Of a stretch of DNA of 64,000 nucleotides, positions 39,594 to 45,393 are shown piece after piece; position 1 is the stretch's first letter, and each line of letters begins with the position of its first letter. The notes under the pieces are model-generated. The model worked only from the letters and a program-made list of their open reading frames with translations. It made no database searches and was not told where the DNA came from. This DNA comes from Synechococcus sp. Nb3U1. Its GTDB lineage: Bacteria > Cyanobacteriota > Cyanobacteriia > Thermostichales > Thermostichaceae. Made by a program: the position numbers and the translations under genes. The stretch lies in NCBI RefSeq assembly GCF_021533835.1, contig NZ_JAKFYQ010000001.1, positions 1,088,079-1,152,078 of the forward strand. Reading direction: 5' to 3'.

Positions 39594-39789
39594 GGCCGTC
39601 CTCAATGGGGAAAAAGGAGAAAATTGGCTGACCAAGAACACGATGAAAACGCCCACTTTGGACGAAAATAGCCCTATACACCTCCGCAAGAACTTTCCCT
39701 GGCTACCCATTTGCATCCTGCCCACATCATAGACAGCCCCCCGGCCGCGGGCAATGCTGGTAAAGTGGAGTGCCCGTTCGCTAAACCCC

Positions 39790-40848
39790 ATGACCGATTC
39801 GCCTTCTTCTATTTCCGAGCGCAAGCAGGATCATCTGGACATTGTTCTACAGCAGGATGTTTCCGCCAAAGGGATCCGCACCGGGTTTGAACGGTTTTTT
39901 TTCGAGCATGTGGCTCTGCCGGAGCTGCACCTGGATCACATCGACTTGAGCAGCGAGTTCTTGGGCAAACGGTTACAAGCGCCCCTTTTGATTAGCAGCA
40001 TGACCGGAGGAACCGGCTCCGCTCATGAGATCAATGTGCATCTGGCCGCTGCCGCCCAACACTTGGGGATTGCCATGGGGGTGGGATCCCAGCGGGCCGC
40101 CCTAGAACACCCGGAATTGGCCTGGACTTACCATGTGCGCAAGGTGGCCCCGGATATTCTCTTGCTGGCCAATCTAGGGGCCGTGCAGCTCAACTATGGC
40201 TATGGGTTGGAGCAGGCTCGTCGGGCGGTGGAGATGATCGAGGCGGATGGGCTGATCCTGCACCTGAATCCTTTACAAGAGGCTGTGCAGCCCCACGGGG
40301 ATTCCGATTGGCGTGGATTGTATGGTCGCATCGAGCAGTTGGTAGCCCAGTTGCCGGTGCCGGTGATCGTTAAGGAAGTGGGCAATGGTCTGAGCGTAAG
40401 GGTTGCTCGGCATTTAGCAGAGTGTGGAGTCGCCGTTTTGGACGTAGCCGGAGCGGGTGGCACCAGTTGGAGCGAAGTGGAGGCCCATCGGCAACCGGAT
40501 CTGATGAGAAAACGCATCGCCCAAGCCTTCGTGGGTTGGGGGATCCCGACCGCTTTATCGCTGCTGGAGATTCGTTGTCAGTTGCCCCATTTGCCCTTGG
40601 TGGCTAGCGGTGGGATCCGCAACGGCATTGAGGTGGCCAAAGCCATCCGGTTGGGAGCCAATCTGGTGGGGATGGCGGCTCCGGCTCTCCAGGCGGTCTG
40701 TGGGGCACAAGAGCAAGCGGTGGTGGAGACTTTTGGAGCGGTGATTGAGGAGTTACGCATTGCCGCCTTTTGTACGGGATCCGCCAACTTGGCCCAGCTC
40801 AAGCAAGCCCCTCTGCGCCGTCAGGATACTTGGGATCCCTTGCCTTAA
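39790..40848 (+). CDS. fni: Type 2 isopentenyl-diphosphate delta-isomerase
   Basis: FMN- and NADPH-dependent isomerase that balances IPP and DMAPP for carotenoid, quinone and phytol synthesis. The 352-residue product shows ERKQDHLDIVL, PLLISSMTGGTGSAHEIN, MGVGSQRAAL, ANLGAVQLNYG, LHLNPLQEAVQPHGD, VIVKEVGNGLS, DVAGAGGTSWSEVE and VASGGIRNGIEVAKAI, all typical of IDI-2. Its ATG lies within the upstream leader of the divergent response-regulator gene. Cyanobacteria commonly use this type rather than IDI-1. Confidence 0.95.
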   Translation: MTDSPSSISERKQDHLDIVLQQDVSAKGIRTGFERFFFEHVALPELHLDHIDLSSEFLGKRLQAPLLISSMTGGTGSAHEINVHLAAAAQHLGIAMGVGSQRAALEHPELAWTYHVRKVAPDILLLANLGAVQLNYGYGLEQARRAVEMIEADGLILHLNPLQEAVQPHGDSDWRGLYGRIEQLVAQLPVPVIVKEVGNGLSVRVARHLAECGVAVLDVAGAGGTSWSEVEAHRQPDLMRKRIAQAFVGWGIPTALSLLEIRCQLPHLPLVASGGIRNGIEVAKAIRLGANLVGMAAPALQAVCGAQEQAVVETFGAVIEELRIAAFCTGSANLAQLKQAPLRRQDTWDPLP

Positions 40849-40872: not shown

Positions 40873-43476
40873 TCATATCCCGAGCACCTGCCATAAACTG
40901 ACAGTCAGTACCAAGGCCCCCAGATGGGAGAGCCACTGCCAGCCTTGCCGGGCTATTTTTTGGATCAACACCCAGGAGAGCACGAGGGCCACAATCAGCG
41001 TGGATCCCTGCAAAAAGTCGATCACCGCCGGATGGGCTGTCCAAGTCGGTAGGGTGGATCCCGTCTGGCCAAAGGTTGCCCAAGTTACCGGCAAAATCTG
41101 CCCGGCCTCCGTCAAGAAGAGGGGCCAATAAAAGGCCAAGGTTCCTCCCAGCACCAGGGGCAAATAGCCGTAGATCATCTCCGCAAACCCCCGCTGCCCT
41201 TTCCCTTTCCTCATCCCCTGCTGTAGCCAAGTCAATCCATAGGCCAAAACCGGGACAACGCTAGGGATCCCGAGCGCCAACAGAGCCGCTGCCAGATGAG
41301 GCCAAAACCCCTGCAAATCCCAGCTCAACCCCCACACCTGCTCAATCCAGGCCAGCACCTGCGGCAAACAATGGAGGTAGATCCCCCCCAGCAGCAGCAA
41401 TAGCAATGCCACCTCATGGGGGCGCGGGGTATGGGTGGTCCACAGTTCAATCCCCGGCGGGCGCAGGTTGAACTCCACCGAGCGGTGCGGGCAAGCTTTC
41501 AAACAGGTCATGCACAGCACACAGTCTTTGTTATCCTGCAGTTGCGCTGGATGGGAGTAGAGGGGGCAGCCCCCGGTTTCCAGGCCTTCCCCTTTTTGTG
41601 GCCCACCCTTGTAGCACTGGTAAGTGGTGCATTCCGCCGAACAGGTACCCTGCTGCGCCCGCAGTTCTGTTATTGAGAGTTTGGCGTAAAGGCCGTTCAT
41701 GCCTCCAATCGGGCAAAGATAGCGACACCAAAAGCGCCGCTCAAACAACAGCGAGCACACCACTGCCCCGCCCGTAATCAGCAACAGCAACCACGCCGAG
41801 AGATAGGCCGTATTGGGCAGATCCCAAATTTCTTCCCACAAAAAAATCAGGGCAAACCCGGCAAACAAGACCCATCCGCCCCATCGCTCCGCCGATTGTC
41901 GGGGCCATTTCCCCAGTTGCCGTGGCCACAGCCACAACGACAGCTTCTGCACCAATTCCCCGTAGATCATGAAGGGGCACACGGCACACCACACCCGCCC
42001 CAAAACCGGGAACACCAGCAGCACCAGCGGCCACCACCAAGCCCAAAATAAATTCAACCCAACGTTGTGAGCCCGATCCTGGGGGCCCCAAAACAGCAGA
42101 AACACCACCAGCGTATAAGTAGGCAGCACCAGGCCATAGTTGAGGCGATCCGTCCACCAAGGGCTGCGCAAAAACTTTCGCAGGCTCGGATAGGCATTGA
42201 GGAGGTTGAGGCGAAACTGTTTGCCGCGAGGTTGAGGGGCCCAAAACACCTCTTCGTTCAGCACCGGCGCCCCTGCCGCCTGTACCACTGCCCGTTCGAT
42301 TAAGTTACGCAGTTCCCGCGAGTTGCCAGGGTAGTCGTAGCTTTGCAGGCGGCGCAAGGCTTCTGGGGCCAGGCTTGGTTTCGGGATCCCACGGCGGCGG
42401 GTATAAAGGCTGAGGAAATAGTCGGCCTTGGCTTTGATATCGGCTTTGCGTACCCGTAGCGGCGGCACCTTGATGGCGGTCACCCAGGGTTCTAGGGCAG
42501 GGATCACCCGTTCCGACACCATGAGAATCCGACAGCGATAGGGGCGGGGATCCAAAGCCGGTTCGCTCTCCCCCCGTTGTACCGGTGTGTAGGATCCCGT
42601 CTCCAGTAGCTTCAGGATCTTAGGCATCAGCTCAGCGGGCAGCTCTTGGATGTTATTCAGAAGTAGAGTGCCCTCTCCCAGCCACTCCAGCAATCCTGGT
42701 TTGCCCCCGGCCCGTCCAAACAGATCAGCGCCACTAGACTGCAAAGCGCTGCAATCCAGCTTGATCATAGGTTGGCGACGATAAGGGGATCCGAAGTGGA
42801 TCAGGGCGGCAATATTGTCTTTTTCTAGGCCCGGTTCCCCAAAAATCAAAATCGGCTCGCGGCTGTGGGCGGCCTCCTTCACCTGCTGGCGCAACCGCAC
42901 CGCGTACCGGCTGGGGCCGACGATGCCCCGCTCTACCTTCGGCACCAAATAGGGCCGCAAAGCCACCTGACGTTCTTGTTCGTAGGTGAGGCGAGCCGTC
43001 ATCTGGGCCAGGGCTTCTGCCAATTCCTGGGCTTCCACTCGGTTAGACAGCCAGGTCGCCACCTGGGGATGCCCTGCTGCCCAGGCCCGCACCGCAGCAG
43101 CAGGGATCCAGCCCAAGCTCCCATTTGAGAGGGCGATCACACTCCGGGACAAGGGTTGCTCCGCCAGCACCTCTGCCAAACCGACAACGGATCCCGGTAA
43201 CAGGCTCACCCGCGACAAGGGATCCCGTTCTTCCCGTCGCGTCAGCGGGACGGAGTCCATGCGCCCCTGGATCAAAATCTGGATCCCGTCTGGCACCGTT
43301 CCGGCTTCTGCCAAAGCCTGCCCCTGCTGAAAGGGGTGCTCCTGCATCTGTTCCGCCAGCGGATACAAACTCTCTAGCGACAGCGCTTGAAATAGGGTGT
43401 GATTTTTGAGCCACTGGGCACGCTCTGCGGGGGTCATCTGCGGTGCCTCTGCTGTTGAACATCCCGTTAGCTGCAT
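40873..43476 (-). CDS. Fusion: cNMP-type sensor, degenerate sigma54-activator AAA+ domain, membrane [4Fe-4S] polyferredoxin
   Basis: The 867 residues form three parts. Residues ~25-150 look like a CRP-type cNMP-binding barrel. Residues ~180-415 are an NtrC/PspF-type AAA+ domain: GIVGPSRY, a Walker A-like GEPGLEKD (213-220, altered from GxxGxGK[ST]), Walker B GTLLLNNI (269-276, D and E replaced by N), VPPLRVRKADI and YDYPGNSRELRNLIERAV, but without the GAFTGA loop that contacts sigma54. Residues ~440-867 contain several membrane helices, CxxCP and CxxxCP pairs (C497/C500, C584/C588) and two [4Fe-4S] cysteine sets (C612, C616, C621, C637; C652, C655, C658, C662), like NapH/NosR/CcoG. Cyanobacteria are not known to have sigma54, so a redox-signalling role is inferred. 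A 22-bp repeat encodes DSVPLTR near residue 77. Confidence 0.8.
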   Translation of the reverse strand: MQLTGCSTAEAPQMTPAERAQWLKNHTLFQALSLESLYPLAEQMQEHPFQQGQALAEAGTVPDGIQILIQGRMDSVPLTRREERDPLSRVSLLPGSVVGLAEVLAEQPLSRSVIALSNGSLGWIPAAAVRAWAAGHPQVATWLSNRVEAQELAEALAQMTARLTYEQERQVALRPYLVPKVERGIVGPSRYAVRLRQQVKEAAHSREPILIFGEPGLEKDNIAALIHFGSPYRRQPMIKLDCSALQSSGADLFGRAGGKPGLLEWLGEGTLLLNNIQELPAELMPKILKLLETGSYTPVQRGESEPALDPRPYRCRILMVSERVIPALEPWVTAIKVPPLRVRKADIKAKADYFLSLYTRRRGIPKPSLAPEALRRLQSYDYPGNSRELRNLIERAVVQAAGAPVLNEEVFWAPQPRGKQFRLNLLNAYPSLRKFLRSPWWTDRLNYGLVLPTYTLVVFLLFWGPQDRAHNVGLNLFWAWWWPLVLLVFPVLGRVWCAVCPFMIYGELVQKLSLWLWPRQLGKWPRQSAERWGGWVLFAGFALIFLWEEIWDLPNTAYLSAWLLLLITGGAVVCSLLFERRFWCRYLCPIGGMNGLYAKLSITELRAQQGTCSAECTTYQCYKGGPQKGEGLETGGCPLYSHPAQLQDNKDCVLCMTCLKACPHRSVEFNLRPPGIELWTTHTPRPHEVALLLLLLGGIYLHCLPQVLAWIEQVWGLSWDLQGFWPHLAAALLALGIPSVVPVLAYGLTWLQQGMRKGKGQRGFAEMIYGYLPLVLGGTLAFYWPLFLTEAGQILPVTWATFGQTGSTLPTWTAHPAVIDFLQGSTLIVALVLSWVLIQKIARQGWQWLSHLGALVLTVSLWQVLGI
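43237..43258 (-). repeat. 22-bp dispersed repeat, copy 3 (inside a coding sequence, inverted)
   Basis: The reverse complement reads GGACTCCGTCCCGCTGACGC then GA, one mismatch from the spacer copy at 20379-20400. Here it encodes DSVPLTR in the cNMP-type domain, the same reading frame as DSVPLPR in copy 1. Confidence 0.7.
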
Positions 43477-43553: not shown

Positions 43554-45188
43554 CTAGGGCAGGTGAAACTGACGACTGATCCGCACCATCGGCCCCAGCC
43601 CCAGCCGCGTCGGGTTCAAAGCCTGCATTTCGAACAGCGCCAGGATGTGCCGCATCTGCAACTCAGGCCGCACCGAGGTCACCCCCATCGCCACCACCAG
43701 ACCGCAGTAGCCACCCGTATCCCGGCAGCGCCGTTCCCAGCGTTTGCGAGCCATGGAGTGAATCGGGTCATCCTCGGGAAATTCCCCAAACAGGTGCAGA
43801 TCCTGATTTCCCGTTTGCACAATTTCTAGGTCGTAGCGATCACCATCAAAGGGATCCACCCCTGTGTTGAAACAGATTCCCTGTGGCCCTCCTTCTCCCT
43901 GCAAGTTTTGGATCAGCTGTTTTGCCTTTGGACGGGAGGTGCGCACAATCACAACGGGCAGCCCTTCTCCGCCCTCCACCAACTTGCTTTCGGGGAGGGG
44001 ATGCAGTTGTCCCATCAGCCGGAGGGCTTCTACTGTTGTCCAGGGCAAAACTCCCAAACCCAACTGAGCTCCCTCCGGCACTAAGTCATCCCGCAATAGC
44101 GTGTGGGCGGTTGTCTCCGACTCCTCCTCCCCTAGCTCCAGCAGATCCGCTGCCAAATCGGGCAAGGCTCGCACCTGTACCGAGAGGGTACTTTCCTTCG
44201 TCTGATTTTTGGATTGAGGATTGGGAATGCGATATCGCCCTTGGCAGGCTTGAAAGTCTTGCTCCAATTTGTTGTGGTGTTGCTCGAGAAAGCGATGCAG
44301 CGCCTCCAGAGCCACCGTCAAAATCGCCGCCTCATCCTCCTGAACTGTAGAGCGCAAGCCCTCTAGAGGGTGGATGGTGCCGAAATTGGGCTCGATCTCA
44401 TCGGGATCCAACTCCGCCAAGTCCAGATCCGGCAGCTCATTCAGGTCGGGATGACGAGCTTGGAAGGTGAGGTAGAGACAATCTTGCTTGAGGAAGGCTT
44501 CTTCCATCTCTTCAGGCGTATCCGGCTGGCCCGCATCCTGGCGAAACTGCTTGAGGGAATGCAGAGAACGGTAAAATAGCACCCCATACTCCATGCCCAG
44601 CCGCCCCATCACCGAAACATATAGGGTGTCCAGATCCCAGTGGTTCAGCTCGATAGCCAGAGCCTGATGATCTTCTAAATAGTCCCAGGGGGCATCTTGC
44701 CAGAGGGTAAGGGCTTTTTGGGTGAGCAAATCGGCATACTCTGCCGGTAGAGGGGGTGGGATCCGCTCATGGGCATCCTCAAAGCTTTGGAGAATTTCAT
44801 CGATTAAGGGCAGCTCCGGCTGACATTCCACTTTGATATCCAGCTCGTGTAAAACTCCACGCAAGAAAAATTGCACCTCTCGATCCCGGACGATAATCTT
44901 TTGCGGACGGGCAGGCGAGGCGGAATGGGGACGCTCCATGGCCAGGATCAGGGTACGCACCATCGGCTCAATCCCCGAACCGAGGGGCACAACCTCCATC
45001 GCCCGCACCACCCCCTGAATGCCGTCCACCCAAAGGATGCACTCCCCTTCCGTGGCGCCAGGACTCATCTGGGATCCCATGCGGAGCCGTCCCGAGAGGC
45101 TGTGGCGATCCCCTTCCCACACCGATGGCACCTGAGGCAGCTTTTGTAGTCGACGAACTGTAGCGGCTGGGAGACCGGACATAGACAT
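43554..45188 (-). CDS. Conserved-looking protein of unknown function
   Basis: The 544-residue soluble protein is acidic and has no signal peptide or membrane helix. I do not recognise a family with confidence. Visible parts are an N-terminal segment (residues ~1-120) with VVRAMEVVPLGSGIEPMVRTLILAMERP, a helical middle, an acidic stretch LNELPDLDLAELDPDEIEPNF, and a C-terminal segment VVIVRTSRPKAKQLIQNLQ...CFNTGVDPFDGDRYDLEIVQTGNQDL...RRCRDTGGYCGLVVAMGVTSVRPELQMRHILAL that reads like a small alpha/beta domain. The ATG MSMSGLPAA is chosen over a start 17 codons upstream. It is 77 bp upstream of the cNMP/AAA+/Fe-S gene on the same strand and could be co-transcribed with it. Confidence 0.75.
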   Translation of the reverse strand: MSMSGLPAATVRRLQKLPQVPSVWEGDRHSLSGRLRMGSQMSPGATEGECILWVDGIQGVVRAMEVVPLGSGIEPMVRTLILAMERPHSASPARPQKIIVRDREVQFFLRGVLHELDIKVECQPELPLIDEILQSFEDAHERIPPPLPAEYADLLTQKALTLWQDAPWDYLEDHQALAIELNHWDLDTLYVSVMGRLGMEYGVLFYRSLHSLKQFRQDAGQPDTPEEMEEAFLKQDCLYLTFQARHPDLNELPDLDLAELDPDEIEPNFGTIHPLEGLRSTVQEDEAAILTVALEALHRFLEQHHNKLEQDFQACQGRYRIPNPQSKNQTKESTLSVQVRALPDLAADLLELGEEESETTAHTLLRDDLVPEGAQLGLGVLPWTTVEALRLMGQLHPLPESKLVEGGEGLPVVIVRTSRPKAKQLIQNLQGEGGPQGICFNTGVDPFDGDRYDLEIVQTGNQDLHLFGEFPEDDPIHSMARKRWERRCRDTGGYCGLVVAMGVTSVRPELQMRHILALFEMQALNPTRLGLGPMVRISRQFHLP

Positions 45189-45393
45189 CCAAACATCCAA
45201 GAAAAAGCAGCAGAAGCACCCAACAGACCGGGCGAACACACCAAAATCATAAGGAGGAATGACCCACCCACTTTGGGAGCAAGATGACAGGATCCCGCCG
45301 CAGTTGATCTAACCACTAGTGTAGGAGCTGAGACCTCCTTCGGGGATAGAAGAACATTTGGCCAAAGTCCCTAGGAAAAAGTGATCCCAGCCC

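Follow-up and report, generated by a model that had tools for sequence, protein, structure and literature searches.

What does a transcription-activator ATPase module do in front of a membrane iron-sulphur protein in a cyanobacterium? The question is raised by one gene in the window analysed here, a stretch of 64,000 nucleotides from the genome of Synechococcus sp. Nb3U1. Regulators of electron flow through the cyanobacterial quinone pool remain to be assigned, and the product of this gene belongs to a widespread, highly constrained family whose members are misleadingly annotated as 'nitrogen assimilation regulatory protein' or as cyclic-nucleotide proteins. The NosR-like proteins offer a parallel, in that NosR was initially termed a transcription regulator and was later assigned electron-transfer and activation roles (PMC5928378). 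If the reading favoured below is true, a transcription-activator ATPase became the controller of a membrane redox protein.

The gene and its site

The 867-codon frame at positions 40873-43476 reported in the earlier note exists, but it lies on the minus strand and is likelier to start at codon 14, where the homologues start. Codon 1 is ATG in the window and ATA in both sister species (L002 and L003), TAG stands directly ahead of codon 14 in L003, and a Shine-Dalgarno-like AGAGG (43446..43450, minus strand) lies 8 nt before the ATG of codon 14. Judged by these features, the protein more likely has 854 residues (40873..43437, minus strand) than 867, and codons 1-13 of the long frame (43438..43476, minus strand) are probably untranslated. 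Residue positions throughout follow the 867-residue numbering of the long frame.

Upstream lies a co-directional gene for a DUF6930/DUF7309 protein (43554..45239, minus strand), and on the other side a convergent gene for a type 2 isopentenyl-diphosphate isomerase (39754..40848, plus strand; TIGR02151); both flank the site in the genus only. The DUF6930/DUF7309 protein, kept beside the gene within the genus, has no assigned function. In the sister species G004 the gene has recently been lost, and between the same two neighbours there remains a stretch with three stops that corresponds to residues 789-867 (L136:8013-8276).

Domain architecture and the membrane iron-sulphur part

Pfam and NCBIfam matches agree with the three-part architecture proposed earlier, namely a CRP-like domain, an AAA+ domain of the NtrC/PspF type and a membrane polyferredoxin. 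The Pfam matches are cNMP_binding (48-131), Sigma54_activat (186-301), AAA_lid_14 (341-404) and two copies of Fer4_5; in NCBIfam numerous activator models cover the AAA+ part, and NapH matches weakly at 491-670. The membrane part comprises a NapH/NosR-like module of four helices with the motifs CX2CP (497-501) and CX3CP (584-589) (41677..42162, minus strand; PF12801 twice, TIGR02163 below cut-off, model pLDDT 85), two presumed [4Fe-4S] sites (41437..41664, minus strand; PF00037 weak at 648-664) and a C-terminal extension of about five helices in the predicted models (residues 686-867; 40876..41421, minus strand). The cysteines named in the earlier note, the two membrane pairs C497/C500 and C584/C588 and the cluster sets C612/616/621/637 and C652/655/658/662, were correctly placed, and all 12, including the eight of the cluster sites, are invariant in 137 of 137 distinct relatives. 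CX2CP and CX3CP end helices 2 and 4 and are followed by CX3CX4CX15C, a non-standard set, and by CX2CX2CX3CP, the standard ferredoxin motif. Helices 2 and 4 are followed by positive charges, which, as a reading of the sequence, place these motifs on the cytoplasmic side.

Proteins of the NapH/NosR/MauN type (TIGR02163, PF12801) share with the window protein the four-helix module, the two Cys-Pro motifs and two presumed cytoplasmic [4Fe-4S] sites thereafter. Unlike them, it has CX2CP in the place of the first CX3CP, departs from the standard at the first cluster site, continues into about five additional C-terminal helices, carries a regulatory head in front and has no nap or nos genes around it. 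As the scores against the NapH models TIGR02163 (48.4 of 213 bits) and NF007013 (39.4 of 234 bits) are both far below cut-off, the module is, by this measure, not NapH itself. For NapH, quinol oxidation has been proposed as the role of the membrane segments, and its two CX3CP motifs are both important (PMC5928378). A predicted model of residues 425-867 (49 sequences) reached a mean pLDDT of 85 and a pTM of 0.87, with pLDDT below 60 in the cluster region. When the membrane part was compared with solved structures, Foldseek gave no hit with an E-value below 0.37, VIA-align gave none with a Z above 6.1, and a sequence search of PDB with the membrane profile gave nothing significant; no known fold can be named from the model, an absence of match that does not make the fold new.

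An activator-type AAA+ domain without sigma-54

The AAA+ domain with its lid (residues 183-410; 42247..42930, minus strand) is recognised by PF00158 and PF25601 above cut-off. In an AlphaFold2 model (mean pLDDT 75) this part matches the AAA+ domain of FleQ with a Z of 21.8 and an rmsd of 2.8 over 226 residues, and activator AAA+ domains in general with a Z of about 21. Elsewhere in the same genome PF00158 finds only weak matches. The AAA+ fold and lid, the PPLRxRKxDI and PGN motifs and the Walker A lysine are held in common with the sigma-54 enhancer-binding proteins (NtrC1, PspF, FleQ, NorR, NifA), and both motifs picked out earlier, VPPLRVRKADI and YDYPGNSRELRNLIERAV, are present.

Unlike those activators, the window protein lacks GAFTGA, the Arg-finger segment and a DNA-binding domain, has NN in Walker B and comes from a genome without rpoN. 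The earlier note had described both Walker motifs as damaged. For Walker B (TLLLNN, residues 270-275; 42652..42669, minus strand) this is true: DE has become NN, N274 and N275 are found in 109 of the 111 proteins of subfamily A, to which the window protein belongs, and neither the Walker B glutamate nor the pattern GT[LIVF]3DE occurs in any of the 137 relatives. Walker A proved less damaged. The sigma-54 activators have GE(S/T)GTGKE and the family GEPGL(E/G)KD, with G218 often E, and the window protein's remnant GEPGLEKD (213-220; 42817..42840, minus strand) includes K219, which is invariant in 137 of 137. Loss of GAFTGA, also noted earlier, extends to all 137 relatives; the loop is shortened. 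The Arg-finger pattern FRxDLxxRL is likewise found in none of the 137; its segment is shortened, and a relocated arginine is possible. Neither Pfam nor the models place a DNA-binding domain C-terminally, the membrane domain following directly after the lid. The likeliest state of the AAA+ domain would be that of a non-hydrolysing nucleotide binder, and the invariance of the Walker A lysine fits nucleotide binding.

The best single PDB sequence match to the window protein is VpsR, a degenerate activator from Vibrio whose Walker B likewise has something other than DE (LLLND) and whose Arg-finger segment differs. Unlike the window protein, VpsR is a soluble, DNA-binding, c-di-GMP-dependent transcription factor with no membrane or iron-sulphur part.

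According to the earlier note cyanobacteria are not known to carry sigma-54 and the enhancer-binding module has probably been reused, an idea that an rpoN gene in the same genome was to refute. No rpoN (PF04552 above cut-off) was found in this genome or in 58 relatives (59 genomes), and the four control genomes were all positive. A published survey of 29 cyanobacteria agrees, sigma-54 and its activators being absent from them (PMC3162934), so that reuse of the activator module is well supported. A hidden sigma-54 was rejected on the strength of the same search and its controls. Given the absence of rpoN and the membrane helices that occupy the position of the DNA-binding domain, we have here an activator-type AAA+ domain without a sigma partner. 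That the protein might still be a working sigma-54-type activator, or another transcription factor, tethered to the membrane is accordingly very improbable: the structural likeness to activators and the close AAA+ match to VpsR, which acts with c-di-GMP, speak for it, and the missing rpoN, GAFTGA and Arg-finger segment, the dead Walker B and the membrane helices where a DNA-binding domain would sit all speak against it.

The CRP-like domain

The N-terminal part (residues 20-150; 43027..43419, minus strand) has a CRP-like cyclic-nucleotide-binding (CNB) fold; PF00027 matches it just above cut-off (E 7.9e-7), and in the predicted model it matches CNB domains with a Z of about 17 over 134-141 residues. 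It shares this N-terminal fold with the CRP/FNR family, unlike which it has no helix-turn-helix, a variable phosphate-binding arginine position and a dispensable domain. In Pfam matches and the model, the CNB domain is followed not by a helix-turn-helix but by a long linker helix (residues 137-176 in the AlphaFold2 model; 42949..43068, minus strand) and then by the AAA+ domain. The phosphate-binding position is R111 in the window protein and R in 35 of 111 members of subfamily A, the alignment being uncertain there. Cyclic-nucleotide sensing, considered in the earlier note, found no positive support, as the arginine position is variable and the domain has been lost in several lineages.

Distribution, conservation and selection

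Among 386 genomes drawn evenly from the cyanobacterial phylum, 103 contain family members (E under 1e-60). Full-length matches with E=0 occur across the phylum; the 59 related genomes hold many full-length matches in open frames at 55-65% identity. The best 80 loci of a scan of genome contigs are all cyanobacterial, and so are all full-length matches in a plasmid search for the AAA+/membrane fusion outside cyanobacteria. Between three species of the genus the whole-gene dN/dS is 0.067-0.094 at a dS of 0.6-0.75. Among the parts, the lowest ratios belong to the iron-sulphur part (0.020-0.046) and the AAA+ domain (0.033-0.039); TM1-4 follow with 0.074-0.087, the last helices with 0.096-0.123 and the CRP-like domain with 0.16-0.22. 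The AAA+ domain, catalytically dead by its motifs, is yet constrained as strongly as the iron-sulphur part, and such strong purifying selection (dN/dS 0.03-0.04) argues that it is functional.

That the frame might be a sequencing or assembly fusion of separate genes, as the earlier note had allowed, or a decaying pseudogene, has negligible probability. Broken copies in L135, L144 and L155 and the remnant in G004 might suggest it, but the full-length frame is intact and open in many independent genomes and evolves under purifying selection; we therefore reject it and regard the fusion as real and ancient. No text describing the CRP-like/AAA+/NapH-like domain order was found among open-licence full texts. 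Judged by eye, no co-occurrence of the family with cytochrome bd or nifH is evident. In the nifH gene of this genome (C1:712478-713294, beyond the window) a frameshift or a sequencing error has divided the reading frame into two overlapping ones; some relatives of the genus have an intact gene.

Subfamilies, stand-alone relatives and genomic context

A tree of the membrane part separates subfamily A, a presumed picocyanobacterial group without the CRP-like domain, with which we infer group f3 to be identical, and paralogue B (about 900 aa; L131-L135, L144, L161, L162, L164, L172:9902-13539 and L173:9878-13569). The genome studied here has form A only. Identity between A and B is 23% in the CNB domain, 32-34% in the AAA+ domain, 58% in TM1-4, 62% in the iron-sulphur part and 33% in the last helices. 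Several branches within A (L027/L029, L156/L157 and L158) have lost the CRP-like domain. Beyond the cyanobacteria, Deinococcus ficus WP_027463891.1, a '4Fe-4S binding protein', aligns at 31% identity with almost all of the membrane part, the C-terminal helices included, and unlike the window protein has neither a CRP-like nor an AAA+ head. The rise in conservation from the CNB domain to the iron-sulphur part, this headless form and the repeated loss of the CRP-like domain suggest a membrane core with an accessory head. That the iron-sulphur core would be the common element and the head its regulator is the main argument for an electron-transfer core.

In one line, that of G032 and G046, a single frame holds the AAA+ domain twice (L030 and L128:8142-11508; 1121-1134 aa). 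On the D. ficus plasmid pDFI1 the gene for the stand-alone membrane module (L171:7066-9347) overlaps one whose His-rich product has a putative signal sequence.

The earlier note had proposed a look for conserved gene neighbours; in subfamily A none is conserved beyond close relatives, the neighbours being lineage-specific, and a cysteine synthase gene is adjacent in none. In 11 of 15 loci, paralogue B has a co-oriented cysK (cysteine synthase) gene next to it or within about 1.2 kb. Its Walker A mostly has a near-standard ending (GTGKT or GSGKT) and its Walker B is mostly DN. In various genomes its surroundings include genes for SQR-like flavoproteins, DUF302 proteins, TauE sulphite exporters, ETHE1-like hydrolases, Hdr-like subunits and cytochrome bd, extra petC and psbA genes and, in some islands, SBF- and ArsP-family transporters of the metalloid type; some copies lie on plasmids, as in Pseudanabaena and Aulosira. 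A similar proximity of sqr and variant psbA genes is known from Geitlerinema (PMC5061849). These surroundings hint at photosynthetic or sulphur electron transport, and B may, by analogy, be the form for sulphide or low oxygen and A that for ordinary photosynthetic conditions. The B protein at AP018309.1 73018-75732 (L173) has probably been misannotated on account of its AAA+ domain, its label being 'nitrogen assimilation regulatory protein'.

Functional interpretation

Our preferred reading, which we put forward tentatively, is that of a regulated, quinone-linked iron-sulphur membrane protein with a non-hydrolysing, nucleotide-binding AAA+ head. From the features described above we infer a quinone partner, nucleotide binding, gating and a direction of electron flow. 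A membrane protein of the NapH/NosR kind would mediate electron exchange of the quinone pool with a partner in the cytoplasm, the two [4Fe-4S] clusters at the cytoplasmic face would serve as the electron path, and the cytoplasmic head of CRP-like and AAA+ domains would control the membrane part. The AAA+ domain, having lost the sigma contact, hydrolysis and DNA binding, now probably binds nucleotide without splitting it, and this binding would change how the head is shaped or assembled, thereby gating the membrane part. The earlier note had suggested control by a nucleotide or by the oligomer state of the AAA+ domain, of which the invariant Walker A lysine fits the former. Several observations count against this reading. 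NapH and NosR pass electrons outward to partners, and the gene for such an electron partner is not linked here; subfamily A is without a conserved neighbour beyond near relatives. The CX2CP of the first motif, the non-standard first cluster site and the low NapH scores would also weaken the likeness on which it draws. A more specific proposal, doubtful though conceivable, is that the nucleotide state would directly set photosynthetic or sulphur electron flow, the activator AAA+ domain having turned into a non-hydrolysing sensing gate that acts on the flow itself rather than on transcription.

The earlier note had seen in the protein a signalling machine; conservation favours an electron-transfer core with a regulatory head, and signalling becomes one rival among others. 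In its clearest form, the [4Fe-4S] part would sense the redox state of the quinone pool or the cytoplasm and the head would be the output, for instance by tethering or freeing a regulator at the membrane. The composition of the head from two regulator domains and the strong constraint on the dead AAA+ domain are in line with this, as are the patchy presence of the family and its loss in a sister species, which would suit a dispensable regulator. Across subfamilies, however, conservation is lower in the head than in the other half, the CRP-like part of the head has often disappeared and no partner regulator is conserved near subfamily A, all of which leaves a membrane redox sensor rather unlikely. 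Still less probable is a role in maturation or metal reduction, as with NosR or CcoG, in which the electrons supplied would go into assembling a redox enzyme or handling metals and not into bulk flow. A role of NosR in N2O reductase activation has been proposed (PMC5928378), and the overlap with a His-rich protein gene in Deinococcus and the SBF and ArsP transporters of some B islands point the same way. Subfamily A, however, has no linked gene for a client enzyme, and the Deinococcus case is a single plasmid and thin.

A further association of NapH-like and CRP-like modules is seen in a second cyanobacterial protein of about 930 aa (L167:1620-4412, L168:2224-4989 and, in the genome studied here, near 1413528 of C1), in which the NapH-like membrane part is N-terminal and the CRP-like domain C-terminal. 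The coupling of the two seems to have arisen twice.
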